This document shows, one piece after another, positions 22,729 to 35,833 of a stretch of 64,000 bases of DNA (position 1 is its first letter; the number at the start of each line of letters is the position of its first letter). The notes under the pieces were generated by a model. It saw only the letters and a list, made by a program, of their open reading frames with translations. It did no database searches and was not told the origin of the DNA. Position numbers and translations under genes: made by a program. Source of the stretch: Thioclava marina (GTDB lineage: Bacteria > Pseudomonadota > Alphaproteobacteria > Rhodobacterales > Rhodobacteraceae); NCBI RefSeq assembly GCF_002020135.1, contig NZ_MPZS01000002.1, positions 434,001-498,000 on the forward strand. Direction: 5' to 3'.

Positions 22729-23685
22729 TTATTCGTAAGTTCGCTCCGCAAGATCGGTCCCGGTGATCGCCGCCTGACAAAGAGCAAGGAAGGCGATCTC
22801 GGCATCCGATTGCTTTCGCAGCGGATTGGTCAGCAGGTAGATATTGACCATCGGCAGTTCCGTGTAGGGCGGGAGCTGACGCAACCGCCCGCTTTCCACG
22901 TCGCGCTTGGCGACATGCAGCGGCAGCGCGCCGATCCCGACCCCGGCCACGATCATCCGGCGCAGTTCGTGCAGGTTCGACGATACGCCCCTCCAGCCCG
23001 GGGCAAGCTTCGCCCGTGCGCGCAGTTGCGCCACCGGAAAGAGCGGCCCCTCCTCGGTTTCGGTCTGGAACGAGACCGAGGTTTCCCCCTCGATCTCGGA
23101 AAGCTCGATTCGCTCCTGTCCGAACAGCGGATGGCGCGCGCCGCAGAACAAGCCGAAATATTCGCGATAGAGGATCGACGCCTTCAAGTTTGCGGGAATT
23201 TTGTGCAGCAGACATATTCCGAGGCTCGCGCGGTTCTGCTGCACGCGGCTGACGACCTCTTCGCTTTCGGCCACCGCGATCGAGAAAGTCACCTTGGGAT
23301 GGGCGACCGCGAAGTCGTGCAGCACCGCGTCGTAATGGTCCGAGATCACGTGAGAGGTCGTGGCGATCGAGATGTGACCGCGCAATTCCTCGGCCCCGCT
23401 TTGCAGCAACGAGGGGAGCTGAGACACCGATCCGAAGATCTGCGCGCATTCCTGATAAAGCAGGCTTCCAGCGCGCGTAACCTTGAATTCATTTGGTTTT
23501 CTGATGATAAGCTCATGCCCGGTGGTGTCCTCAAGGCGCTTGAGCGCCGCGGAGATCGTCGGTTGCTTGAGCCCGAGGAAATAGGCTGCCCGCGAGATGC
23601 CCTGCTGCTCCACCACCACCATGAAAGTGCGCAGAAGGTTCCAGTCGAGGTGCCAGGGGAAGCGCTGTTCGTAGGGCTTGACCAT
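22729..23685 (-). CDS. LysR-type transcriptional regulator
   Basis: A 318-residue protein. The N-terminal winged helix-turn-helix covers about residues 10-70 (LLRTFMVVVEQQGISRAAYF, then LKQPTISAALKRLEDTTGHE) and the C-terminal substrate-binding domain covers about 95-300. The ATG at 23685 is preferred over an in-frame TTG one codon earlier. It diverges from the amino-acid importer operon, and a palindrome of LysR type (23687-23708) sits directly at its start. It is most likely the local activator of the importer and catabolic operon, responding to the substrate or an intermediate, with autorepression. Confidence 0.85.
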   Translation of the reverse strand: MVKPYEQRFPWHLDWNLLRTFMVVVEQQGISRAAYFLGLKQPTISAALKRLEDTTGHELIIRKPNEFKVTRAGSLLYQECAQIFGSVSQLPSLLQSGAEELRGHISIATTSHVISDHYDAVLHDFAVAHPKVTFSIAVAESEEVVSRVQQNRASLGICLLHKIPANLKASILYREYFGLFCGARHPLFGQERIELSEIEGETSVSFQTETEEGPLFPVAQLRARAKLAPGWRGVSSNLHELRRMIVAGVGIGALPLHVAKRDVESGRLRQLPPYTELPMVNIYLLTNPLRKQSDAEIAFLALCQAAITGTDLAERTYE

Positions 23686-23686
23686 C

Positions 23687-23708
23687 AATCTTATCTATAT
23701 TGAAGATT
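23687..23708. promoter_or_regulatory. LysR-type binding site, AATCTT-N10-AAGATT
   Basis: A perfect 6-bp inverted repeat with a 10-bp AT-rich centre, containing the T-N11-A core of LysR recognition sites. It abuts the LysR start codon (23685) and lies about 127-148 bp upstream of the importer gene start, suiting autorepression plus divergent activation. Confidence 0.55.
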
Positions 23709-23834
23709 TTGATTATTTATTTGCGCGATATCTTGCCGCATGCAAGCGTTTCCTTCGAGGGGGCCAGCAGGCCTTTCCAGAGCGGGACGCACCGGGAACA
23801 GGGCGCCCGTTATGCAATCCATCAGGAGAGACAC

Positions 23835-24623
23835 ATGACTAACCGCAGAACGCTTCTCAAAACCCTGCTCGGCGCTGGCGCGCTCGCCGCGACCGGGATT
23901 TCGCTGCCCTCGCTCGCGATGGCGGACGAGCTGGAGAGCCTCAAGGAAAAGGGCGTGATCCGCATCGCCATGTCGGGCGCCTACCCGCCCTTCAACTTCA
24001 TCAACGAACAGAACGAAGTCGTCGGCTTCGACCCGGCCATCGGCGAGGAAATCGCCAAGCGCATGGGCCTCAAGGTCGAGATCATCACGACCGCCTGGGA
24101 CGGCATCATCGGCGGTCTTCTGGCCAACAAGTATGACGCCATCGTCGGCTCGATGTCGATCACGCCCGAGCGCGAGAAGGTCGTCGATTTCGTCGGCCCC
24201 TACTATCGCATGAGCCGCGGGATCTTCGTCACCAAGGACAGCAAGATCCAGACCCTCGACGACCTGAAATCCGCGACGCTGGGCGTGACGCTGGGCGAGA
24301 CGCACGAGCAATGGGCCCGCGATCAGGGCTACAACGTGCGCACCTACAAGGGCCTCCCCGAGCTGATGCTGGAACTCGAGAACGGCCGCGTCGATGCGAT
24401 CGTGAACGACGATATCCCGGTCCTGCTCGCGATTTCGAAGAACGACGCGCCGATCAAGGAGCTTGATGTCGATCTGGGCGGCGTGGCCGATCAGGCGGGC
24501 ATCGCGATCCGCAAGGACAATCCCGAACTAAAGAAAGCCATGCAGGACGCGCTCAACGCGATGCAGGAAGACGGCACCTATCTCGAGATCGCCAACAAGT
24601 GGGTCGGCGGCGACATTCGCTGA
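23835..24623 (+). CDS. Amino-acid ABC transporter, periplasmic binding protein (family 3)
   Basis: A 262-residue protein started at the ATG at 23835 (AGGAGA 6 bp upstream). The signal peptide MTNRRTLLKTLLGAGALAAT has a twin-arginine look and ends with a cleavage site after AMA. The mature part shows the SBP_bac_3 fold: GVIRIAMSGAYPPFNFINEQ, VVGFDPAIGEEIAKRMG, then YDAIVGSMSITPEREKVVDF. These proteins capture polar amino acids in the periplasm. It is the first gene of a nine-gene operon. A 13-bp hairpin follows it, which may raise its transcript level over the permease genes. Confidence 0.9.
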   Translation: MTNRRTLLKTLLGAGALAATGISLPSLAMADELESLKEKGVIRIAMSGAYPPFNFINEQNEVVGFDPAIGEEIAKRMGLKVEIITTAWDGIIGGLLANKYDAIVGSMSITPEREKVVDFVGPYYRMSRGIFVTKDSKIQTLDDLKSATLGVTLGETHEQWARDQGYNVRTYKGLPELMLELENGRVDAIVNDDIPVLLAISKNDAPIKELDVDLGGVADQAGIAIRKDNPELKKAMQDALNAMQEDGTYLEIANKWVGGDIR

Positions 24624-24647
24624 CGCTCGGCTTATGGCTGATACGAA

Positions 24648-24681
24648 CCGCGCCCGCCGCTGATTGCGGCGGCGGGCGCGG
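24648..24681 (+). other. Intercistronic hairpin between binding protein and permease
   Basis: A perfect 13-bp stem CCGCGCCCGCCGC / GCGGCGGGCGCGG with an 8-nt loop, 25 bp after the binding-protein stop, followed by AAAACTTTTCT. Such elements in ABC importer operons act as partial terminators or 3' stabilisers that keep the binding protein in excess over the membrane subunits. Confidence 0.6.
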
Positions 24682-24716
24682 AAAACTTTTCTCAAGACGC
24701 CGGGACCCGCGAACGC

Positions 24717-25367
24717 ATGGATACGGAACTGATCCTCAAGGTCTATCCATATTTCCTCGAAGCCGCCCTGATCACGATCGAGCTCTCGGTCCTGACCATC
24801 GCGCTCGGGCTGATCTGCGGCGCGCTCGGCGCGACCGCCCGGCTCTCGCGCTTCAAGTCACTGCGCTTCTTGGGTGCGGCCTATGTCAGCTTCTTTCGCG
24901 GCACGCCCGCGCTGATCCAGCTGTTCCTGCTCTATTTCGGCGGCCCGCAGATCGGCATCCAACTTGATGCGTTCGAGGCCGGCGTGATCGGCTTGGGCGT
25001 CAATATCGGCGCCTACATGACCGAGACGATGCGCGGCGCCATCATCGCGATCGACAAGGGACAGGGCGAAGCCGCCCGCACCCTGGGCCTGTCGCGCTCG
25101 CAAGCCTTCCGGAAGGTCGTGCTGCCGCAGGCGCTGCGTCTGATGATCCGTCCGCTGGGCGTCAATATCAACGCGCAGATCAAGGGCACGGCGCTGGTCT
25201 CTGCGATCTCGGTGGTCGAACTGACCTATACCGCGCAGCGCTATATCGGCTCGACCTACAAACCCTTCGAGATGTTCTTCCTTGCCGGTGTCCTCTACCT
25301 CGTGATCATCACGATCACGGGCAAGGGCGTGGCCTATCTCGACCGCAAGGTGAGGCTGCCCGCATGA
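24717..25367 (+). CDS. Amino-acid ABC transporter permease 1
   Basis: A 216-residue membrane protein with four to five hydrophobic helices. The cytoplasmic EAA loop [20 protein letters not shown] is typical of His/Glu/Gln/Arg/opine (HisM/GlnP) permeases, and FFRGTPALIQLFLLYFG is the family signature near the N-terminus. It pairs with the second permease 41 bp downstream as a heterodimer in the inner membrane. Confidence 0.9.
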   Translation: MDTELILKVYPYFLEAALITIELSVLTIALGLICGALGATARLSRFKSLRFLGAAYVSFFRGTPALIQLFLLYFGGPQIGIQLDAFEAGVIGLGVNIGAYMTETMRGAIIAIDKGQGEAARTLGLSRSQAFRKVVLPQALRLMIRPLGVNINAQIKGTALVSAISVVELTYTAQRYIGSTYKPFEMFFLAGVLYLVIITITGKGVAYLDRKVRLPA

Positions 25368-25408
25368 GCCTGACCTTCCCCCACACCCAAGCGGCACAGG
25401 AGTAAGAC

Positions 25409-26065
25409 ATGGGACTCGATTTCTCCGTCCTCCCGCCTTTCTACGGCACGCTTGCTCTCGGCGTACTCTGGACCGTTGCGATCACTGCGGCCTCGGCTGT
25501 TCTGAGCTTCTTCGGCGGCATCCTTCTGGCGGTGATCGCGCTCTATGCTCCGATGGCGATCCGGTTGCCGTTCCGCTTCCTCGCGTGGCTCTTCATGGGC
25601 ACGCCGTTGCTGCTGCAACTCTTCCTGATCTATTTCGGGCTCGTGCAGATCGGGATCGACCTTCCGGCCTTCGTGGCGGGCGTGATCGGTCTGGGCTTTC
25701 ACTTCGCGGTCTATAACTCCGAGCTGATCCAGACCGCGATGATCGCGGTGGACAAGGGCCAGATGGAGGCCGCGCGCACGCTTGGCCTGTCGCGTCGCCA
25801 GGCGCTGATCAAGGTGGTGGTACCGCAAGCGGTGCGCGACGTGATCCCGCCGATCGGGAACAACATGATCGCGCTGCTGAAAGACTCCGCGCTCGTCTCG
25901 GTGATCGGGGTGTCGGAACTGACCCTCTCGGCGCAGCGTGCCATCGGCCAGACCTACCGCGCCTTCGAATTCTATGCGGCCGCCGCCGTCCTTTACTACA
26001 TCATCAATCTCGGCATGGAAGCGGTGCTTCGCTGGTTCGAGAACCGCAACCGCCTCTATCGCTGA
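25409..26065 (+). CDS. Amino-acid ABC transporter permease 2
   Basis: A 218-residue membrane protein of the HisQ/HisM type, with AGGAG before its [20 protein letters not shown] corresponds to the (R)GTP signature with the Arg replaced by Met. The EAA loop is [20 protein letters not shown]. Together with the first permease it forms the transmembrane path. The ATPase gene begins 16 bp later. Confidence 0.9.
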
Positions 26066-26081
26066 ACCGGGAGATATCGAC

Positions 26082-26852
26082 ATGACCGCGCCCCATTCCT
26101 TCGTCGAGATCCGTCACGCGCAGAAATCCTATGGCACGCTCGAAGTGCTCAAGGATATCTCGCTCAATGTCGAGCGCGGCCAGATCGTCGCGATCATCGG
26201 CCCCTCGGGCTCGGGCAAATCCACGCTGCTGCGCGCGATCAACGATCTCGATCCGCTCACGGGTGGTGAAATCTGGCTCGACGGTGTTCAGGTGAACAAG
26301 GCCCTGCCGCATCGCCAGTATGAAAAGCACATCAACCAGATGCGCCAGGAAATCGGGATGGTGTTCCAGCACTTCAACCTCTTCCCGCATCTCACCGTGC
26401 GCGAGAATGTCACCATGGCGCCGAAGCTTCTCAAGAAGATCTCGGACAAGGAGGCGGACAAGCTCGCCGAGGAACAGCTCGATCACGTCGGGATGCTCGA
26501 GCGGATCGACTATTACCCCGCGCAGCTTTCGGGCGGTCAGAAGCAGCGCGTGGCGATTGCGCGTGCGCTCGCGATGAAACCCAAGCTGATGCTCTTCGAC
26601 GAGGCGACCTCGGCGCTCGATCCCGAGCTGGTCGAGGAGGTGAACCTCGTGATGAAGAAGCTCGCGCAAGAGCACATGACGATGATCATCGTGACCCACG
26701 AGATGGATTTCGCGGCCTCGGTCTGCGACCGCGTGCTGTTCATGGATCAGGGCGTCGTGGTCGAGGAAGGCCCGCCCGAGCAAGTCTTCCGCAACCCGAC
26801 GCAAGAGCGAACCCGGAATTTCCTGCGCAAACATCTCGAAGGTGCGAAATGA
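26082..26852 (+). CDS. Amino-acid ABC transporter ATP-binding protein
   Basis: A 256-residue ATPase started at the ATG at 26082. Walker A is [15 protein letters not shown], the Q-loop is [20 protein letters not shown], the signature is [17 protein letters not shown], and Walker B is [17 protein letters not shown], followed by the switch [13 protein letters not shown]. The [12 protein letters not shown] block is typical of GlnQ/HisP. It powers the two permeases. Its stop overlaps the aminotransferase start in an ATGA junction, so transporter and enzymes are translationally coupled. Confidence 0.92.
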
Positions 26853-28207
26853 GCGACGAACAGTCCCACCTGTTCTATCAGTCCCGTCAGCCCCGTCCGT
26901 TCCTGGACCATGGCGAGGGGATCTATCTCTACGACGAATCCGGCAAGCGCTATATCGACGGATCGTCGGGCGCGATGGTGTCCAATATCGGCCATTCCAA
27001 TCCGCGCGTGCTCGCCAAGATGAAGGCGCAGATGGACAAGGCGACCTTCGGCTACCGCCTGCATTTCCGCACGCGTCCCTCCGAGGATCTGGCCGCCAAG
27101 GTGGCCTCGCTGGTGCCCGAAGGGCTCAATCGGGTGTTCTTCGTTTCGGGCGGCTCCGAGGCGGTCGAAACCGCGATGAAACTCGCGCGGCAATATGCGG
27201 TGACGCAGGGCCAGACGAGCCGCTGGAAGGTGATCTCGCGCCTGCCCTCCTATCACGGGGCGACGATGGGCTCACTCGGCGTGACCGGAAGCCCGCTGTT
27301 CACCGGCCCGTTCGCGCCGATGTTCGAAGAGATGCCGAAGATCGCGGCGCCAACCTGCTATCTCGACCGCGACAACCTCACCGAAGAAGAGCGCGGCCTC
27401 AAATATGCCGAGAAACTGCGCGAGCAGATCGAGGCGGAAGGCCCCGACACCGTCCTAGCCTTCCTGATGGAGCCGGTGGGCGGCGCCTCGACCGGGGCGC
27501 TGGTCGCGCCCGACAGCTATTACACCCGCATCGCCGAGATCTGCCGCGAATACGGCATCCTGCTGATCTTCGACGAGGTGATGACCGGGGCGGGCCGCAC
27601 CGGCAAGTTCCTCGCAGCCGAGCATTGGGGGATCACGCCGGACATCATCGCCATGTCCAAGGGGTTCGGCGCGGGCTATGCGCCACTGGGCGCGGTGGTT
27701 GCGCGGGGCGATATGGTCGAGGCGCTGCTCGATGCGGGCGGTTTCCTGCATGGCTTCACCTATGCGGGCAACCCGCTGGCCTGTGCCGCCGGTCTCGCCG
27801 TGCTGGAAGAGATGGAAGAGCACGACATCGTCGGCAATGCCGCGCGAATGGGCGAGGTTCTGAAGACCCGCCTGACCGGGCTGATGGATCGCTATCCGTT
27901 CATCGGCGATGTGCGTGGCAAGGGGCTTTTGCTGGCGTTCGAGCTGGTCTCGGATCGCGAGACGATGAAGGTCCTGCCCAAGGAGTGGAACGCCCATTCC
28001 GAGCTGGTCGAACTGGCTTACGAGCGCGGGCTGATCATCTATGCGCGCCGCACGCGTGGCGGTTACGAGGGCGATCACTTCCTCGTCTGTCCTCCGCTGA
28101 TCATCACCGAGCCGCAGATCGGTGAGATCATGGAGATCCTGACCGACGCGCTCGACGCCTTCGCCGCCAGGCACGACCTGCCGGTGATCGAGGAGGTCAG
28201 CGCATGA
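26849..28207 (+). CDS. Class III aminotransferase
   Basis: A 452-residue PLP enzyme. [53 protein letters not shown] and the PLP lysine in [16 protein letters not shown] (K271) are characteristic of class III (omega- or beta-amino acid) aminotransferases. These enzymes act on amines and on beta-, gamma- or omega-amino acids more often than on alpha-amino acids. In this operon a beta-amino acid substrate would give the 3-oxoacid needed by the CoA-transferase downstream. It overlaps its neighbours on both sides by 4 bp (ATGA). Confidence 0.88.
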
Positions 28208-28896
28208 AGCTGCCCAACAAATCCACCACGCTCGAAGAGGCCGTGGCCGCGATCCCGCAAGGGGCGACGGTGCTCGTCGGCGGGTTCGGCGTGCCCGGCA
28301 CGCCCTTCACGCTGCTGCGCGAACTCGCCCGTCAGGACCAGCGCGAACTCGTGCTGGTGAAGAACGACGCGAACGAGGCGGGCATGGGGATCGACCACCT
28401 GATCGCCGCGGGTCAGGTGCGCAAGCTGATCGTCACCCATCTCGGCCTCAACGCCAACGCCATCGCCGCGATGAACGAGGGCAAGATCGAGGTCGAGTTT
28501 TGCGCCCAGGGCATCCTCGCCGAGCGCATCCGTGCAGGCGGCGCGGGGCTGGGCGCGATCCTCACCGATATCGGCATCGACACCGAACTGGCTAAGGGCA
28601 AGCAGGTCGTCGAGATGGAGGGCCGCCCGATGCTGGTCGAGCCCGCTTTGCGGGCCGATGTGGCACTGGTCCACGCAACCACCGCCGATCCGTTCGGCAA
28701 CCTCGCCTATGCCGCCACCGCGCGCAATTTCAACCCGCTCATGGCGATGGCCGCGAAACAGGTGATCGCCGAGACCGAGACCCTTGTTCCGCTTGGAGGC
28801 CTCGCCGCCGACGCGGTCGAGACCCCCGGCGCTTTCGTCGATCAGGTCGTGGAGCTGTCCGAACTTTCTCAGGAGTATGGCATTGTCCGACGCTAG
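28204..28896 (+). CDS. 3-oxoacid CoA-transferase, subunit A
   Basis: A 230-residue family I CoA-transferase alpha subunit. VLVGGFGVPGTPFTLLREL is the glycine-rich CoA-binding segment. KLIVTHLGLNANAIAAMNEG and ATTADPFGNLAYAATARNFN also match AtoD/ScoA. With subunit B it moves CoA from succinyl-CoA or acetyl-CoA to a 3-oxoacid. Homologous dimers include acetoacetate and dehydrocarnitine CoA-transferases. Its end overlaps subunit B by about 20 bp. Confidence 0.9.
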   Translation: MKLPNKSTTLEEAVAAIPQGATVLVGGFGVPGTPFTLLRELARQDQRELVLVKNDANEAGMGIDHLIAAGQVRKLIVTHLGLNANAIAAMNEGKIEVEFCAQGILAERIRAGGAGLGAILTDIGIDTELAKGKQVVEMEGRPMLVEPALRADVALVHATTADPFGNLAYAATARNFNPLMAMAAKQVIAETETLVPLGGLAADAVETPGAFVDQVVELSELSQEYGIVRR

Positions 28897-29536
28897 ATCC
28901 CGCATGGTGGCCCGTGCCGCGCGCGAGATCGCGCCCGGTATGGTCGTGAACCTTGGTATCGGCCTGCCGACCAAGGTGGTGAACTACCTGCCCGCCGATT
29001 TTCCTGTCTGCCTCCATTCGGAAAATGGGTTGACCGGGATCGGTCCGACCCTGCCTCACGACAAGGCGGACCGGAACCTGATCGATGCGGGCGGGGCCTA
29101 TGTCTCGACGATCCCCGGCTCGGCGTTTTTCGACAGTGCGGTGAGCTTCGCGTTGGTGCGCTCGGGGCGGCTCGACCTGACCCTGCTCGGCGCCTTCGAG
29201 ATCGCGCAGAACGGCGATCTGGCGAACTGGAAGATCCCGGGCAAGTTCTCTCCCGGCGCGGGCGGCGCGATTGAACTCGCGCAAAAGGCGCGGCGCGTGG
29301 TGGTGATGACCACCCATTGCGACCGCAAGGGCAATCCGAAACTGCTGGAGGCCTGCACCCTGCCGCTGACCGCCAAGGGCCGCGTCGCGCGGATCTATTC
29401 CGACATGGCGGTGGTCGATGTGACGCCCGAGGGCTTCGCGCTGGTTGAGCTGGCCGAAGGTGTCTCGCTGCCCGAGCTGCGCGAGGCCACCGGCGCGCCG
29501 ATCGCGATCCCCGCTGGCGACATTCCGACATTCTGA
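28877..29536 (+). CDS. 3-oxoacid CoA-transferase, subunit B
   Basis: About 219 residues. VNLGIGLPTKVVNYLP and LHSENGLTG identify the beta subunit; the Glu of SENG (E49 from this start) forms the glutamyl-CoA intermediate. FFDSAVSFALVRSGRLDLTL and GAFEIAQNGDLANWKIPGK are also family hallmarks. Start choice is unclear. The ATG at 28877 lies only one base after AGGAG, whereas a TTG at 28883 has ideal 7-bp spacing, so translation may begin at the TTG. The overlap with subunit A suggests coupled synthesis. Confidence 0.9.
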   Translation: MALSDARSRMVARAAREIAPGMVVNLGIGLPTKVVNYLPADFPVCLHSENGLTGIGPTLPHDKADRNLIDAGGAYVSTIPGSAFFDSAVSFALVRSGRLDLTLLGAFEIAQNGDLANWKIPGKFSPGAGGAIELAQKARRVVVMTTHCDRKGNPKLLEACTLPLTAKGRVARIYSDMAVVDVTPEGFALVELAEGVSLPELREATGAPIAIPAGDIPTF

Positions 29537-29544
29537 GGTGAGAC

Positions 29545-30837
29545 ATGGATCAAGAGCTTCAAACCCGCATCCTCTCGGCGGTCGATGACGCGTTCGACGA
29601 CGAGATCGCCTTTCTGTCCGAACTGACCGCGTACCCGTCCACCCGTGGGCAGGAGCAAGGCGCACAGGATTGCATGGCCGGGGCGCTCAATGAGCGCGGT
29701 TACGAGGTCGACCGCTGGCAGATCGAGGTGGACAAGATCCGGAACCTGCCGGGCTTCTCGCCGGTGATCGGCGATTACGAGGATGCGGTGAACGTGGTGG
29801 GCAGCCATCGCAGCACGACTCAGAAGGGGCGCTCGCTGATCCTCAACGGTCATATCGACGTGGTGCCTGCGGGGCCCTTGGACATGTGGGACCGTCCGCC
29901 GTTCGAGCCGCATGTCGATGACGGCTGGCTTTACGGTCGTGGCGCGGGTGACATGAAGGCCGGGCTGGTGTCAAACCTGTTCGCGCTTGATGCACTGCGG
30001 TCGCTTGGCTTGGCGCCAGCAGCGGATGTGTTTTTCCAATCGGTCGTCGAGGAGGAATGCACCGGCAACGGCGCGCTGGCCTGCCTTGAACGCGGCTACA
30101 AGGCTGACGCCGCGCTGATCCCCGAGCCGTTCGAGGAAAAACTGGTCACTGCGCAGCTTGGCGTGATCTGGGCGCAGGTGCATCTCAAGGGGCTGCCGAC
30201 GCACGTTGCCTATGCGGGCTCCGGCGCGAATGCGATCGAGGCGGCGATCCCGCTGATTTCCGCGCTGCACGGGCTGGAAGAGCGTTGGAACGCGCCCGGC
30301 TGTCGGCATTCCGAATACGGTCACACCCATCACCCGATCAATCTCAACATCGGCAAGATCAAGGGCGGCGACTGGGCGAGTTCCGTGCCCGCCTGGTGCG
30401 TGTTCGACATGCGGATCGCGATCTATCCCGGTCAGGATATCGAGGCCGCAAAAGCCGAGATCGTGGACACGATCATGGAAGCCGCGCGCTCCAACGCCTT
30501 CCTCAAGAACTCGCTGCCCGAGATCGTCTGGCATGGTTTCATGGCCGAGGGCTATGCGCTGGCGGACGACCGTTCGGAAACTGCCACGGCCGCCATCGGC
30601 TCGTTGGACGCGGCGCACGCGGCGGTCAACGGCTCGATGCTCGATCGCATGGCGATCACCGCGACCACCGATGCGCGGTTCTTCGGGCTTTATGCCGACA
30701 CCCCCGCTCTGGTCTACGGCCCGCGCGCCGAGGCGATCCACGGCTTCAACGAGCGCGTCGAGCTGGAAAGCATCCGGCGCATCACCCAATCCACCGCCCT
30801 GTTCATCGCGGACTGGTGCGGTCTCGAAACCATCTGA
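29545..30837 (+). CDS. M20-family deacylase (ArgE/DapE type)
   Basis: A 430-residue metallopeptidase-fold amidohydrolase. Metal ligands are seen in [13 protein letters not shown] (His and Asp), [13 protein letters not shown] (bridging Asp), [11 protein letters not shown] (general base and metal Glu) and the late [11 protein letters not shown] (His). ArgE/DapE enzymes remove acetyl or succinyl groups from an amine; others in the M20 family cleave N-carbamoyl or dipeptide bonds. In this operon it would free an N-acylated amine, either at the substrate or after chain cleavage. It starts 8 bp after the CoA-transferase. Confidence 0.85.
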
Positions 30838-30845
30838 GGTTCCCC

Positions 30846-32021
30846 ATGCGCGACGCCGTCATCGTCTCCACCGCCCGCACACCGATCGGCAAAGCCTATC
30901 GCGGCGCGTTCAACAATCTCGAAGGTCCGGCGCTGGCTGCCCATGCGGTGAAGGCTGCTGTGGCGCGAGCAGGGCTCGAGGGCGGCGAGATCGAAGAGGC
31001 TATCTTCGGTTCGGCGCTCACCCAGGGCCCCACCGGGGTCAATGTCGCGCGCCATATCGCGCTGGCCGCCGGTCTGCCGGATACGGTGGCGGGGGTTACG
31101 GTGGATCGGCAATGCGCCTCGGGGCTCAACGCGATCGCCTCGGCCGCGCATATGGTGATGGCCGAGGGTGTCGAGGTGGCACTGGCGGGCGGGCTCGACT
31201 CGATCTCGCTGGTACAGAACAGCCATTGGAACGGCTATCGCTACCGCAGCCCCGGCGTGCCGGACGCCTATTACATGTCGATGATCGAGACGGCCGAGGT
31301 CGTGGCCGAACGTTACGGCGTCACGCGCGCGATGCAGGATGCCTATGCGCTGCAAAGCCAGAACCGCACGGCTGCGGCGCAGGAGGCGGGGAGGTTCGAT
31401 GCGGAGATTGTGCCGGTCGAGGCGGTGAAGCTCGTGAAAGACAAGGCCACGGGCGAGACGCATGAAGAGGTGGTGCGGCTGGAGCTCGACGAGTGCAATC
31501 GCGCCGGCACGACACTGGACGGGTTGGAGAGCCTCAAACCCGTTCTGGGCCCCGAGAAATGCGTGACCGCCGGGAATGCCTCGCAGCTCTCCGATGGCGC
31601 TTCGGCCTGCGTGGTGATGTCGGGTGAGGAAGCGACAAGGCGCGGGCTCTCGCCGCTGGGCGCCTTCCGGGGTTTCGCGGTGGCGGGTTGTGCGCCGGAC
31701 GAGATGGGGATCGGCCCGGTCTTCGCGATCCCGCGCCTGCTGGAGCGCACAGGACTGACCATCGAAGACATCGACCTGTGGGAGATCAACGAGGCCTTTG
31801 CGGCGCAGCTTCTCTATTGCCGCGACAAGCTCGGCATTCCCGATGAGAAGCTCAACGTCAATGGTGGCGCGATCTCTATCGGGCATCCCTATGGCATGTC
31901 GGGCGCGCGGATGGCGGGGCATATCCTGCTGGAAGGCAAACGGCGCTGCGCGCGCTACGGCGTGGTGTCGATGTGCATCGGCGGCGGTCAGGGCGCGGCG
32001 GGGCTGTTCGAGATCTTCTGA
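30846..32021 (+). CDS. Acetyl-CoA acyltransferase (thiolase)
   Basis: A 391-residue thiolase started at the ATG at 30846. The nucleophile C90 is in [20 protein letters not shown]347 is in [17 protein letters not shown], and the second cysteine C377 is in [13 protein letters not shown]. It cleaves a 3-oxoacyl-CoA to acetyl-CoA and a shortened acyl-CoA. As the last gene of the operon it supplies the final step after CoA transfer. It could equally be a general acetyl-CoA acetyltransferase, but the arrangement favours degradation. Confidence 0.92.
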
Positions 32022-32062: not shown

Positions 32063-32301
32063 GCTCCGCCGACCTTGTCGCCATCGAAGGATGAGCCCCC
32101 TTGGCGCGAGCTCCCGTCACATTGCACCGAAGGGATTGAGCACACGCGAGAAACCCCTAGTTTGCTCTCGTCGCAATCCTCTCACCCCTTCGCACGAAAC
32201 CTTCACGTTGCCGCGCGCACCTTCGGCTTTGCTTGCAATTTCAGCCTCGGTGGCGTTTCAAGAAGATACTGCAGTGCAGAAACTTCTTGCGAGTGTCGAT
32301 C

Positions 32302-33447
32302 ATGAGTGATGCAGAAAAGACGTATGAGCATAGCGTTCCCTTCTTCTGGCCGATGGCCGCCGCGATGGAGTGGCAGAAGATCGGGCTCGATGCGGTCGAG
32401 AAAGGGCTGACCTATCTCGACGAGGCCGCGAAGATCACGACCCCGCCCGAGCCGCAATGGGCCACGAAGAACCACGTGCTCCTCGACCTCGACACGATGC
32501 GGCTGCGCGATTTCGGCGGCACCGGCGGCGGCATCCCGGTGCTGGTCGATGCGCCTTATGCCGGTCACTCCTCGACCATCGCGGATTATGCGAAAGGCCA
32601 AAGCCTGATCGAGACGCTGCTGGCCGCCGGGCTGGGGCACGTGCTCTGCACCGACTGGAAAAGCGCGACGCCTGAGATGCGTGATTTCGACATCGACAAG
32701 TATCTCGCCGAGATCAATGTCGCGGTCGACGATCTCGGAGGGCGCGTGATGTTGGTGGGCCTATGTCAGGGGGGGTGGATGTCGGCGATGTATGCCGCGC
32801 GTTTCCCCGAAAAGGTCGCAGGCCTCGTTCTGGCCGGCGCGCCCATCGACACCGATGCCGGGCACGGGCCGATCCGTAAGCTCGCCCATCAGATGCCGCT
32901 TTCGGCCTATCAGGAGATGGTCGAGGCGGGAGAGGGCCGGATGCCGGGGCGCTTCATGCTCACGGGTTGGAAGAACATGCATGCCGATCAGCAATATTTC
33001 GGCAAGTTCGTCGACCTTTATCAGCATATTGACGATCGGAATTTCATGAAGCGCACCGAGCACTTCGAGAGTTGGTACGAGAACCCGATCGATCTGCCCG
33101 GGCGCTATTACCTGCAAGCCATCGACCTCTTGTTCAAACAGAACCTCTTCGCCAAGGGCAAGTTCGTCGGCCTGGGGCAAAAGCTCGATCTCGGCGTGAT
33201 CACCAGCCCGACCTTCCTGCTCGCGGGAAAGAGCGACGACATCACCACGCGCGAGCAGGTTTTCGCAGCCGAGACGCTCCTCGGCACCAAGCGCGACGAG
33301 ATCGTCTCCCGGCTGGTCGAGGGCGGGCATATCGGACTTTTCATGGGCAGCCATACCCTTGCGAATGTCTGGCCGGAAATCGGCCAGTGGCTCGGATCTC
33401 TCGGGGCCAAAGCTGGAGACACGCAAAATGGACCAGACCGTCACTGA
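32302..33447 (+). CDS. PHA synthase-like alpha/beta hydrolase with cysteine nucleophile
   Basis: A 381-residue protein. The nucleophile elbow reads VGLCQGGWMSAMY with Cys at residue 155, not the Ser of ordinary lipases. The acid is D312 or D313 (LLAGKSDDITT) and the histidine is H343 (VEGGHIGLFMG). A Cys-Asp-His triad in a G-x-C-x-G box is typical of polyhydroxyalkanoate synthases (PhaC). The length fits a class III PhaC, but no PhaE partner or phasin is seen. It could be a polymerase, a depolymerase or another acyltransferase. It overlaps the following P-ATPase gene by 20 bp, which is an unexpected partner. Confidence 0.7.
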   Translation: MSDAEKTYEHSVPFFWPMAAAMEWQKIGLDAVEKGLTYLDEAAKITTPPEPQWATKNHVLLDLDTMRLRDFGGTGGGIPVLVDAPYAGHSSTIADYAKGQSLIETLLAAGLGHVLCTDWKSATPEMRDFDIDKYLAEINVAVDDLGGRVMLVGLCQGGWMSAMYAARFPEKVAGLVLAGAPIDTDAGHGPIRKLAHQMPLSAYQEMVEAGEGRMPGRFMLTGWKNMHADQQYFGKFVDLYQHIDDRNFMKRTEHFESWYENPIDLPGRYYLQAIDLLFKQNLFAKGKFVGLGQKLDLGVITSPTFLLAGKSDDITTREQVFAAETLLGTKRDEIVSRLVEGGHIGLFMGSHTLANVWPEIGQWLGSLGAKAGDTQNGPDRH

Positions 33448-35833
33448 GCCGCAGACCCGGAAGGACCTGCCGAAAACGGACCGCAAGACCGGTCTGAGCA
33501 CGGCGGAGGCAACGAAGCGGTTCGAGCGATACGGTCCCAATGCGCTCAAGAGTGAAGAAAAGACCCTGCTACAACGCATCGCGGGGTATTTCTGGGGCCC
33601 CATCCCCTGGTTGATCGAGCTTGCCGCAGGCCTGTCGCTCGTGCTGCGCGACTGGTCCGATTTCGGCGTGATCTTCGTGATGCTGCTGATCAACGCCGCC
33701 GTGGGGTTCAAAGAAGAGAGCAAGGCAAGTTCGGCCATCGCGGCGCTCAAGGCGCAGCTCGCGCCGAATGCCCGCGTGAAACGGGACCGGCAATGGCAGG
33801 AAATCGCCGCGCGCGAACTCGTGCCCGGCGATATCGTGCGCCTGTCGATCGGCCAGATCGTTCCGGCGGACCTGGACCTTTTCGAGGGCCAGTATCTCTC
33901 GGTCGACGAAGCGGCGCTGACCGGCGAGTCCCTGCCCGTCGACAAGTCGGTCGGCGACAAAGCCTTCTCGGGTTCGGTGATCAAGCTGGGCGAGATGACG
34001 GGCGAAGTGACCGCGACCGGAATGGAGACCTATTTCGGGCATACCGCGTCGCTTGTGCAGACCACGACCGGCAAGTCGCATTTCCAGAAGGCCGTGATGC
34101 AGATCGGCAATTTCCTGATCGCGGCTGCGCTGGTTCTTGTGGCGATGATCGTCATCGTCTCCTTCCAGCGGCACAATCCGCCGCTCGAGGTGATCCAGTT
34201 CGCCCTGATCCTGACGGTCGCTGCAATCCCTGTGGCCTTGCCGACCGTCTTGTCGGTGACGATGGCGGTGGGCGCGGAACGTCTGGCGCGGATGAAGGCA
34301 ATCGTTTCGCGGCTCGTGTCGATCGAAGAACTGGCCGGGGTGGATGTGCTGTGTTCGGACAAGACAGGCACGCTGACGCTCAATGAATTGACCGTCGAGA
34401 ACCCGCGTCCGGCAGAGGGTGTCGCGGTCGAGGATTTGCTGAGTGCGGCCGCGCTCGCCTGTGACCGCGATGCCCCCGATGCGATCGACACGGCGGTGCT
34501 TGCCGCGGCCGACAAGATTGCCCTGACAGCGATCGAAACCCTCGATTTCACACCCTTCGATCCCGTCAGCAAGCGCAGCGAGGCCGAGGTGGCACTCGAT
34601 GGAAAGCGATGGCGGGTCGCCAAAGGCGCGCCTCAGGTCATCGTCGAGCTCGCCGCGATGGACGCCCACTTGCGCGAAGCGGTGGAAGGCGACGTCGAGG
34701 CGCTGGCACAGCAGGGTTACCGAGCGCTCGGGGCCGCAAGAAAGCTTGCGGACGCGGACTGGGAGTTTCTTGGCCTGCTGCCGATCATCGACCCGCCGCG
34801 CCCAGATGCGGCAAGCACCATCGCAGAGGCGCGCGAGATGGGGATCGACGTCAAGATCATCACTGGCGATCATGAGGCGATCGCGCGCCAGATCGCGGGC
34901 AAGCTCGACCTCGGGCAAAAGATCTATCCCGCCGGCGAGTTGCTTGACGGAGACCCCGCGACGGTCGAGGCCAATGTCCGCGCCGCGGACGGGTTCGCCC
35001 GCGTTCTGCCCGAGCACAAATTCCGCATCGTCGAAGCGCTACAGGCCGGACACTCGATCGTCGCGATGACGGGGGACGGGGTGAATGACGCCCCTGCCCT
35101 GCGCAAGGCCGATGCAGGCATCGCCGTGAGCGGGGCGACCGATGCCGCCCGTGCTGCCGCCGATCTCGTGCTGACCGACAAGGGCCTGTCGATCATCACC
35201 ACCGCGATCGAGGAATCGCGCAGGATCTTCGCCCGGATGACAAGCTACGCCACCTTCCGCGTGGCCGAGACGATCCGGGTCCTGCTGTTCATGACGCTCA
35301 CCATTCTCGTCTTCGATTTCTACCCGGTCACCGCGATCATGATCGTCCTTCTGGCGGTGCTCAACGACTTCCCGATCATGATGATCGCCTATGATAATGT
35401 CTCGGTCTCGCCGCGCCCGGTGCGATGGGACATGCGGCGCGTGCTCACCGTCGCGGCCACCCTCGGCGTGACAGGGGTAATCGAGACCTTCTTGCTGTTC
35501 TGGTTCGTCGATGCCCATCTCGGCCTGCCCCGCGACCAGATCCAGACGATCATCTTCCTGAAGCTTCTCGTCTCGGGGCACATGACGCTGTTCGTCACGC
35601 GCCACCAAAGCTGGTTCTGGCGCAGGCCCTTCCCGGCGCTGCGGCTTTTTGCGACGACCGAGGCAACGCAACTTCTGGGCACGCTGATCGCGGTCTACGG
35701 GCTGTTCGTGACCCCGATCGGCTGGAGCGCCGCCTTGCTGGTCTGGCTCTATTGCCTTGCGTGGCTTCCGCTTGAAGGCGCGATGGCGCTCCTCGTGCGG
35801 GGGGTCTACGATCGCAAATTCGCCACCAGATGA
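33428..35833 (+). CDS. P-type ATPase, plasma-membrane proton-efflux (type IIIA) like
   Basis: An 801-residue ion pump started at the ATG at 33428. DEAALTGESLPVDK is the actuator loop, and VLCSDKTGTLTLNEL holds the phosphorylated D311. The KGAPQVI nucleotide-site motif, MTGDGVNDAPALRKADAG hinge and VSGATDAARAAADLVLTDKG segment follow. The short N-terminus, the VALPTVLSVTMAVGAERLA helix 4 and the overall length fit plant/fungal-type H+-ATPases, which also occur in bacteria. It would export protons at the cost of ATP under acid or low-energy stress. Cation specificity is an inference. Confidence 0.85.
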   Translation: MDQTVTEPQTRKDLPKTDRKTGLSTAEATKRFERYGPNALKSEEKTLLQRIAGYFWGPIPWLIELAAGLSLVLRDWSDFGVIFVMLLINAAVGFKEESKASSAIAALKAQLAPNARVKRDRQWQEIAARELVPGDIVRLSIGQIVPADLDLFEGQYLSVDEAALTGESLPVDKSVGDKAFSGSVIKLGEMTGEVTATGMETYFGHTASLVQTTTGKSHFQKAVMQIGNFLIAAALVLVAMIVIVSFQRHNPPLEVIQFALILTVAAIPVALPTVLSVTMAVGAERLARMKAIVSRLVSIEELAGVDVLCSDKTGTLTLNELTVENPRPAEGVAVEDLLSAAALACDRDAPDAIDTAVLAAADKIALTAIETLDFTPFDPVSKRSEAEVALDGKRWRVAKGAPQVIVELAAMDAHLREAVEGDVEALAQQGYRALGAARKLADADWEFLGLLPIIDPPRPDAASTIAEAREMGIDVKIITGDHEAIARQIAGKLDLGQKIYPAGELLDGDPATVEANVRAADGFARVLPEHKFRIVEALQAGHSIVAMTGDGVNDAPALRKADAGIAVSGATDAARAAADLVLTDKGLSIITTAIEESRRIFARMTSYATFRVAETIRVLLFMTLTILVFDFYPVTAIMIVLLAVLNDFPIMMIAYDNVSVSPRPVRWDMRRVLTVAATLGVTGVIETFLLFWFVDAHLGLPRDQIQTIIFLKLLVSGHMTLFVTRHQSWFWRRPFPALRLFATTEATQLLGTLIAVYGLFVTPIGWSAALLVWLYCLAWLPLEGAMALLVRGVYDRKFATR

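Follow-up and report, generated by a model that had tools for sequence, protein, structure and literature searches.

A Thioclava marina operon probably takes up and breaks down a beta-amino acid acetylated at its distal amine, most likely N6-acetyl-beta-lysine

The catabolism of L-beta-lysine in Pseudomonas B4, reportedly described by Bozler, Stadtman and co-workers in about 1981 (EC 2.6.1.65 and EC 3.5.1.63), is said to proceed by acetylation, transamination to 3-oxo-6-acetamidohexanoate, thiolysis and deacetylation to gamma-aminobutyrate (GABA). We know of no genes assigned to this pathway. Within a partial body of literature, no assignment of genes for acetyl-beta-lysine breakdown was found among the matches listed, which does not prove that none exists. 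Here, we describe an operon of Thioclava marina which, together with its LysR-type regulator, comprises ten genes (positions 22729-32021) of a 64,000-nucleotide stretch of contig NZ_MPZS01000002.1, hereafter called the window. The operon probably serves to take up and break down a beta-amino acid whose distal amine carries an N-acetyl group. The likeliest substrate is N6-acetyl-beta-lysine, or else beta-lysine that an enzyme from outside the operon acetylates, and the products would be GABA and acetyl-CoA. The proposed step order matches that described for Pseudomonas B4, but the operon includes an importer and lacks an acetyltransferase. The reactions of this route are known from biochemistry; what is new is the variant cluster, importer-linked, aminomutase-free and module-swapping.

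Other systems share parts of this gene set. In the Bacillus cluster, whose gene order is presumably yodTSRQP-kamA, and in clusters of this type from other Bacilli (L182-L203; L numbers denote the loci compared and G numbers the genomes, G000 being that of the window), a class III aminotransferase, CoA-transferase A/B and an M20 enzyme lie close together, as they do here. These clusters, however, encode the acetyltransferase AblB and in part the aminomutase KamA, whereas the window has an importer and a thiolase, its genome has no KamA or AblB over cut-off, and its aminotransferase falls outside PRK06917, in a separate clade. Relatives of a second type, such as L017 (Cribrihabitans marinus) and L168 (Parasedimentitalea marina), have the same importer type and a related aminotransferase (77% and 62% identical). 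They differ in that a protein of the beta-keto-acid cleavage family (BKACE) replaces the CoA-transferase and thiolase, and a histone-deacetylase-family amidohydrolase replaces the M20 enzyme. The clostridial lysine fermentation (KamA, KamDE, Kdd, Kce, and Kal) has beta-lysine and a beta-keto-acid cleavage step in common with the proposed route, but the available portion of PMC3149608 describes neither acetylation nor an aminotransferase step to the 3-oxoacid.

Nine plus-strand genes (23835-32021; Table 1) encode an amino-acid ABC importer, an aminotransferase, CoA-transferase A/B, an M20 deacylase and a thiolase, with intergenic gaps of, in order, 93, 41, 16, -4 (ATGA), -4 (ATGA), -20, 8, and 8 bp. 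All ten open reading frames are intact, and the putative catalytic motifs (e.g., SENG, QCASG, and CIGGGQG) are in place. The coordinates, gaps, and Pfam and NCBIfam families bear out the first-pass annotation, which had described a LysR regulator divergent from nine tightly coupled genes. Its term "self-contained" goes too far in one respect, as the operon includes no acetyltransferase, aminomutase or GABA-catabolic gene. The whole set recurs with LysR in L152 and L153 (same genus), L166 and L214 (aminotransferases 77% and 82% identical), and L215 (76%) contains the complete set plus one extra gene, a GNAT acetyltransferase gene between the aminotransferase and the CoA-transferase; this recurrence makes the arrangement more than chance. 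L151 (76%) has the gene set with LysR but no thiolase match. The divergent position of LysR is found in L151-L153, L017 and L166.

In the proposed pathway, the ABC importer, under LysR control, would take up the substrate, and the aminotransferase would convert N6-acetyl-beta-lysine to 3-oxo-6-acetamidohexanoate, with acetylation of the distal amine preventing cyclization onto the ketone. The CoA-transferase would activate this 3-oxoacid, and the thiolase would cleave it to acetyl-CoA and 4-acetamidobutyryl-CoA. The CoA-transferase may then hand the CoA on to the next 3-oxoacid, releasing 4-acetamidobutyrate, from which the M20 enzyme would strip acetate to give GABA. GABA transaminase and succinate-semialdehyde dehydrogenase, encoded outside the operon here, would lead on to succinate. 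An acetyl-beta-lysine pathway calls for an aminotransferase, 3-oxoacid activation or cleavage and a deacylase encoded together, and the operon encodes such a set; we propose, from gene content, N6-acetyl-beta-lysine and 4-acetamidobutyrate as the substrates of the aminotransferase and of the M20 enzyme, respectively. Family names do not reveal the substrate, since neither the binding protein nor the aminotransferase passes an NCBIfam cut-off; the nearest families of the latter, PRK07483 (451 bits) and PRK06917 (444 bits against a cut-off of 535), both stay below theirs. The nearest solved relative of the M20 enzyme is 3pfo (364.6 bits).

Relatives of the aminotransferase were sampled in two sets. 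A search of 385 genomes of the class, the own genome aside, gave 19 matches with at least 60% identity; another nine lay at 47-57%, and many at 40-46%. The first set (25 loci) consists of 18 of these 19 (G284 was left out), G014, G015, G020, L017 and the plasmid loci L166-L168. G014, G015 and G020 were drawn from 12 non-own genomes matching at an E value of ≤1e-120, of which a fourth, G039, was already among the 18, and the plasmid records were taken from 12 with 60-80% aminotransferase identity. L017 (77%) was the sole true relative among 80 loci from a contig scan with short peptide patterns, and the other 79 (27-37%) are not counted as evidence. In a tree that also includes three outside rows, the 25 loci and the window group together with support (98/98). 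PRK07483-type paralogues, 40-46% identical (own copy at G000:C1:925437-926741), form a separate clade and were set aside. The second set derives from 398 genomes of the phylum, in which 21 matches reached an E value of ≤1e-140; as the own genome and G066 had already been sampled, 19 loci remained, which are not on the tree. In the genus, the aminotransferase is accessory (11 of 16 genomes searched, own included, E ≤ 1e-120). A neighbor was counted when it lay on the same strand as the aminotransferase, within 6.5 kb, and was at least 33% identical to the bait.

Exactly one beta-keto-acid cleavage module was found in 24 of the 25 first-set loci, namely BKACE in 17 (the bait was identified by Pfam PF05853, 357 bits, on one member) and CoA-transferase A/B in seven; no locus has both, and L135 has neither. 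The second set gave one module in 17 of 19 loci (BKACE in 15, CoA-transferase in 2, both in none). On the aminotransferase tree, the label changes four times (25 labelled rows, L135 being unlabelled), and well-supported branches force at least three of these changes; the BKACE locus L017 groups with L151 and L166, which are of the CoA-transferase type, and all three have the same importer type. That two unrelated cleavage systems accompany one conserved aminotransferase suggests that this enzyme makes a beta-keto acid and would hence act on a beta-amino group.

Nearly all loci encode a candidate amidohydrolase, 24 of 25 in the first set and 18 of 19 in the second. Among those of the first set, nine have M20 alone, 11 a histone-deacetylase-family, acetylpolyamine-amidohydrolase-type (APAH) protein alone and three DMFA2_C alone, and L140 combines M20 with APAH; L133 has none, despite 4.5 kb of contig beyond its CoA-transferase. 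The nearest solved relatives of the APAH-type protein of L017 are acetylpolyamine amidohydrolases. GNAT genes occur in 10 of the 25 and 13 of the 19 loci, and an importer, of HisJ or polyamine type in the first set, in 19 and 12, respectively. The presence of a GNAT and an amidohydrolase in one cluster suggests that a second amine receives an acyl group ahead of transamination and loses it again later.

The link to beta-lysine comes from the Bacilli. The PRK06917 aminotransferase was over cut-off in 22 of 121 Bacilli genomes, and all 22 neighborhoods were examined by tblastn. They contain a relative of the beta-lysine N-acetyltransferase AblB (21/22), CoA-transferase A/B (19/22), M20 (20/22), KamA (10/22), a GABA-transaminase-like gene (4/22) and an aldehyde dehydrogenase (7/22). 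L203 carries, in a row, an aminotransferase, CoA-transferase A/B, M20, GABA transaminase, aldehyde dehydrogenase, AblB, a regulator that we take to be of the PAS/sigma-54 type, and KamA. Its members pass the cut-offs of PRK06917, PRK06915, TIGR00700 (GABA transaminase, 572 versus 507 bits), TIGR03827 (AblB, 305 versus 205) and TIGR03820 (KamA, 642 versus 525), and its aldehyde dehydrogenase passes none among the matches listed. Judged by these families, L203 is a predicted lysine-to-succinate route in one cluster, the thiolase step excepted. A second copy in the Bacilli genome G421 (L204, 6992-15939), below the PRK06917 cut-off, is linked to an importer and resembles the window in layout; it comprises CoA-transferase, thiolase, aminotransferase, a second class III aminotransferase, amino-acid ABC importer genes and an aldehyde dehydrogenase, of which the second aminotransferase and the dehydrogenase pass no cut-off among the matches listed.

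GABA genes also lie close to the operon in the genus. Beyond LysR, L152 and L153 have genes for GABA transaminase and succinate-semialdehyde dehydrogenase, which in L153 are over the cut-offs of PRK07495 and TIGR00700 and of TIGR01780, respectively. Six of the nine genus genomes searched (G005, G006, G009, G012, G014, and G015) have a GABA transaminase gene no more than about 6 kb away from the aminotransferase; G002 and G004, which also have the aminotransferase, were outside this search. Such flanking genes would fit a pathway that ends in GABA, the compound that beta-lysine should give on losing an acetyl unit. The enzyme for the product is available in the own genome as well (G000:C2:848243-849514), 93% identical to the copy flanking the operon in L153. 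The gene content, its conservation, the swapping of modules and the proximity, in relatives, of genes for AblB, KamA and GABA metabolism are plain observations. The module swaps, the GNATs, AblB and KamA of the Bacilli and the GABA genes support the logic of the first-pass annotation, which had proposed import, transamination to a 3-oxoacid, cleavage and deacylation in parallel with the acetyl-beta-lysine route.

Several observations weigh against degradation of N6-acetyl-beta-lysine by the operon. The nine relatives at 47-57% identity (L141-L147, L154, and L155) and the plasmid locus L169 have other neighbors than those of the operon; of these ten, L145 is alone in having a CoA-transferase pair, at a distance of 6.4 kb, which would just have passed the neighbor rule. 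Identity alone sets no boundary, since second-set loci at 55-57% still carry parts of the module set. Members of the PRK07483 clade also adjoin a BKACE-family gene (25-27% identical to the bait in L159, L160 and L162; Pfam-checked only in L150), and BKACE linkage by itself is therefore not specific to the pathway. DMFA2 genes co-occur with APAH-type genes in several loci, so the function of the DMFA2 protein may be another one. In the Bacilli, tblastn gave a thiolase match in none of the 22 stretches, and KamA was not found within the stretch covered in 12. The enzymes of L182-L203 are 33-51% identical to those of the window: the aminotransferases are 39-44% identical and fall in a different clade, and the M20 enzymes are 33-37% identical. 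Owing to this low identity and the separate clade, the likeness is one of parallel composition, with specificity not inherited by strict orthology. In the genus, the GABA transaminase gene is elsewhere in the genome, away from the operon, in G000, G001 and G008. Finally, the available part of a 2019 paper (PMC6522883) offers, as speculation, a role in biotin metabolism for B. subtilis YodT; the paper calls YodT uncharacterized and the physiological function of KamA still to be determined.

The same chemistry could serve another molecule, a beta-amino acid whose second amine is protected but whose chain is shorter or longer or whose acyl group is different (formyl or succinyl). Indeed, the module logic of GNAT, aminotransferase, cleavage and amidohydrolase leaves the chain length unfixed, importers vary between HisJ and polyamine types, and the addition in some loci of an amidohydrolase with an alanine racemase, or of DMFA2, suggests varied substrates. 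However, the AblB/KamA linkage in Bacilli and the GABA transaminase linkage in the genus and some Bacilli point to C6 beta-lysine being converted to C4 GABA, and we regard a different molecule as unlikely. M20 enzymes commonly free amino acids from N-acyl forms, and the substrate might accordingly be an N-acylated or peptide-like beta-amino acid that lacks a second amine; M20 would then act before transamination, CoA transfer and thiolysis. The absence of a GNAT from the operon, and of a close match to the linked GNATs or AblB from the genome, would suit such a compound, which is nevertheless quite improbable: GNATs in both sets of relatives, including the otherwise identical set of L215, suggest intracellular acylation of an amine, and the APAH-type replacement of M20 that was checked (L017) is nearest to acetylpolyamine enzymes.

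A route resembling lysine fermentation, via 3,5-diaminohexanoate and 3-oxo-5-aminohexanoate, is brought to mind by the annotation of the L167 and L168 BKACE proteins as "3-keto-5-aminohexanoate cleavage protein". We consider it very unlikely, since the route in the available part of PMC3149608 uses a dehydrogenase and shows no acetylation, whereas the operon has an aminotransferase and a deacylase instead. A search for KamD (lysine 5,6-aminomutase, PF09043), which did not extend to Kdd, was negative in 24 alphaproteobacterial genomes with the aminotransferase but also in 14 controls. That the CoA-transferase and thiolase come from broad families might also speak for a generic ketoacid operon (ketone bodies or beta-ketoadipate) with a passenger aminotransferase. 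Yet it is the cleavage half that varies, while the aminotransferase and an amidohydrolase stay constant, and the thiolase is far below the cut-off of PcaF (TIGR02430, 315.5 versus 597 bits), by which we rejected a beta-ketoadipate (PcaIJF) thiolase; we see next to no chance for a generic operon. Degradation of N6-acetyl-beta-lysine, or of beta-lysine acetylated by another enzyme outside the operon, stays our preferred reading.

Where the substrate of the operon would come from can be approached through the same 24 genomes, in 22 of which the operon neighborhood is covered. Lysine 2,3-aminomutase (TIGR03820) was over cut-off in none of the 24, own included, versus 4 of 14 controls, and AblB (TIGR03827) in none of the 24 versus 3 of 14, with no AblB match in the own genome. 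Since neither enzyme is over cut-off, the substrate is probably taken up from outside. Below cut-off, TIGR03820 matched in 10 of the 24, and in 6 with a strength comparable to that of an AblA_like_2 radical-SAM protein of the own genome (TIGR03822, 443 bits versus a cut-off of 396; G000:C1, about 1129502-1130560; L158, 9002-10060), whose gene has neighbors that we take to be uvrC-like and pgsA-like. No acetyltransferase for the distal amine is encoded in the operon, and the best match of the own genome to a profile of the linked GNATs is partial and scores 35.7 bits, versus 223-227 bits in three genomes, a contrast that arises partly by construction because the GNATs of these three are rows of the profile. 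The earlier statement that no aminomutase or acetyltransferase is present thus holds for the operon, and for close matches to AblB and the linked GNAT type across the genome, but not for the AblA_like_2 protein elsewhere. The substrate could be imported acetylated or be acetylated after uptake by another enzyme, for which another GNAT could serve.

The binding protein offers a weak hint. In an alignment of 11 operon proteins with E. coli ArgT/HisJ, the position that we take to be Asp11 of LAO holds Ser or Thr in every case and Asp in none, whereas the Arg and Asp presumed to bind the amino-acid head group are conserved. This change would fit, weakly, a non-cationic distal end and an uncharged side chain, but it does not settle whether the acetylated form is imported, as it is also seen in L017, where a GNAT is encoded. 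A source of the acetylated compound exists: according to the available part of PMC1224877, methanogens of many kinds have Nepsilon-acetyl-beta-lysine as an osmolyte, which AblA and AblB synthesize. As far as its available text goes, PMC3543383 deals with synthesis of this osmolyte only. The ectoine importer EhuABCD was considered and rejected, no component being over its cut-off (EhuA, 315.9 versus 345.4 bits; EhuB, 96.7 versus 190.9; EhuC, 160.4 versus 196.95; EhuD, 143.3 versus 205.2).

Table 1. Features of the operon and its divergent regulator (window positions)
Feature	Position	Strand	Remarks
LysR-type regulator, divergent from the operon	22729-23685	-	ATG at 23685, stop at 22729; PF03466 and PF00126 over cut-off
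Divergent regulatory gap, 149 bp	23686-23834		Between LysR and binding-protein genes
Possible LysR box, ATC-N9-GAT	23693-23707		Within the divergent gap; weak
Periplasmic amino-acid-type solute-binding protein	23835-24623	+	SBP_bac_3 (Pfam); no NCBIfam cut-off passed
ABC importer permease 1	24717-25367	+	PF00528 (BPD_transp_1); TIGR01726 over cut-off
ABC importer permease 2	25409-26065	+	PF00528 (BPD_transp_1); TIGR01726 over cut-off
ABC importer ATPase	26082-26852	+	PF00005 (ABC_tran)
Class III aminotransferase, proposed N6-acetyl-beta-lysine (beta-amino acid) aminotransferase	26849-28207	+	PF00202 (Aminotran_3)
3-Oxoacid CoA-transferase subunit A	28204-28896	+	TIGR02429 over cut-off
3-Oxoacid CoA-transferase subunit B	28877-29536	+	TIGR02428 over cut-off; SENG at residue 48
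M20 (ArgE/DapE) deacylase, proposed 4-acetamidobutyrate deacetylase	29545-30837	+	NF005306/PRK06837, 634.6 bits versus cut-off 376
Thiolase, proposed 3-oxo-6-acetamidohexanoyl-CoA thiolase	30846-32021	+	TIGR01930 over cut-off; QCASG and CIGGGQG motifs

The ATC-N9-GAT sequence in the divergent gap, a motif that we take to be that of a LysR box, is too common to count alone: the window contains 36 against 24.4 expected, and 1 of 100 shuffles reached 36. Its letters, compared by eye, are identical upstream in L152 and only partially so in L153. Promoter and terminator scans gave nothing above shuffled sequence. Downstream of the operon are a gene for an alpha/beta hydrolase that matches PHB_depo_C and DUF3141 (32299-33447) and a P-type ATPase gene (33431-35833), both probably unrelated.

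Other gene combinations were seen around the aminotransferase and its paralogues. In the own genome, L150 (G000:C1:916001-936000) has a PRK07483-type paralogue, 42% identical, followed by a gene of the BKACE family (PF05853, 161.6 bits), with an NMT1_3 binding protein and a DctM/DUF3394 transporter nearby; the locus is a candidate for a second beta-amino-acid pathway. Directly 5' of the aminotransferase, L125 (8101-9738) and similarly L127, L128, L221-L223, L225 and L228-L232 have a DMFA2_C (N,N-dimethylformamidase beta-like) gene, often along with one of APAH type. An FAD-dependent DAO-type oxidoreductase gene is found 3' of the amidohydrolase in the polyamine-importer loci L126, L129-L131, L137, L139, L140 and L157. 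In L166 (14174-16449; CoA-transferase type) and L168 (12355-14641; BKACE type), the operon is trailed by an amidohydrolase (Peptidase_M20 in L166) and an alanine racemase, a pair that hints at stereo-inversion or a conjugated substrate.

More speculatively, the operon might be a scavenger of the methanogen osmolyte N6-acetyl-beta-lysine, imported already acetylated and burnt, as a counterpart of ectoine scavenging, and its enzymes with their BKACE and APAH replacements might be the missing genes of the beta-lysine pathway; we hold this extended view to be less likely than not. If the proposed function is true, the operon would supply candidate genes for a beta-lysine pathway known to us only from early enzymology, and Alphaproteobacteria would have a catabolic sink for beta-lysine or N-acetyl-beta-lysine. 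It would also offer a reading of the Bacillus yod/kamA cluster, the function of whose aminomutase was called undetermined in 2019 (available part of PMC6522883). Moreover, CoA-transferase and BKACE have repeatedly been exchanged for each other, as have M20 and acetylpolyamine-type amidohydrolases, around a single conserved aminotransferase; this non-homologous replacement can serve for function prediction.

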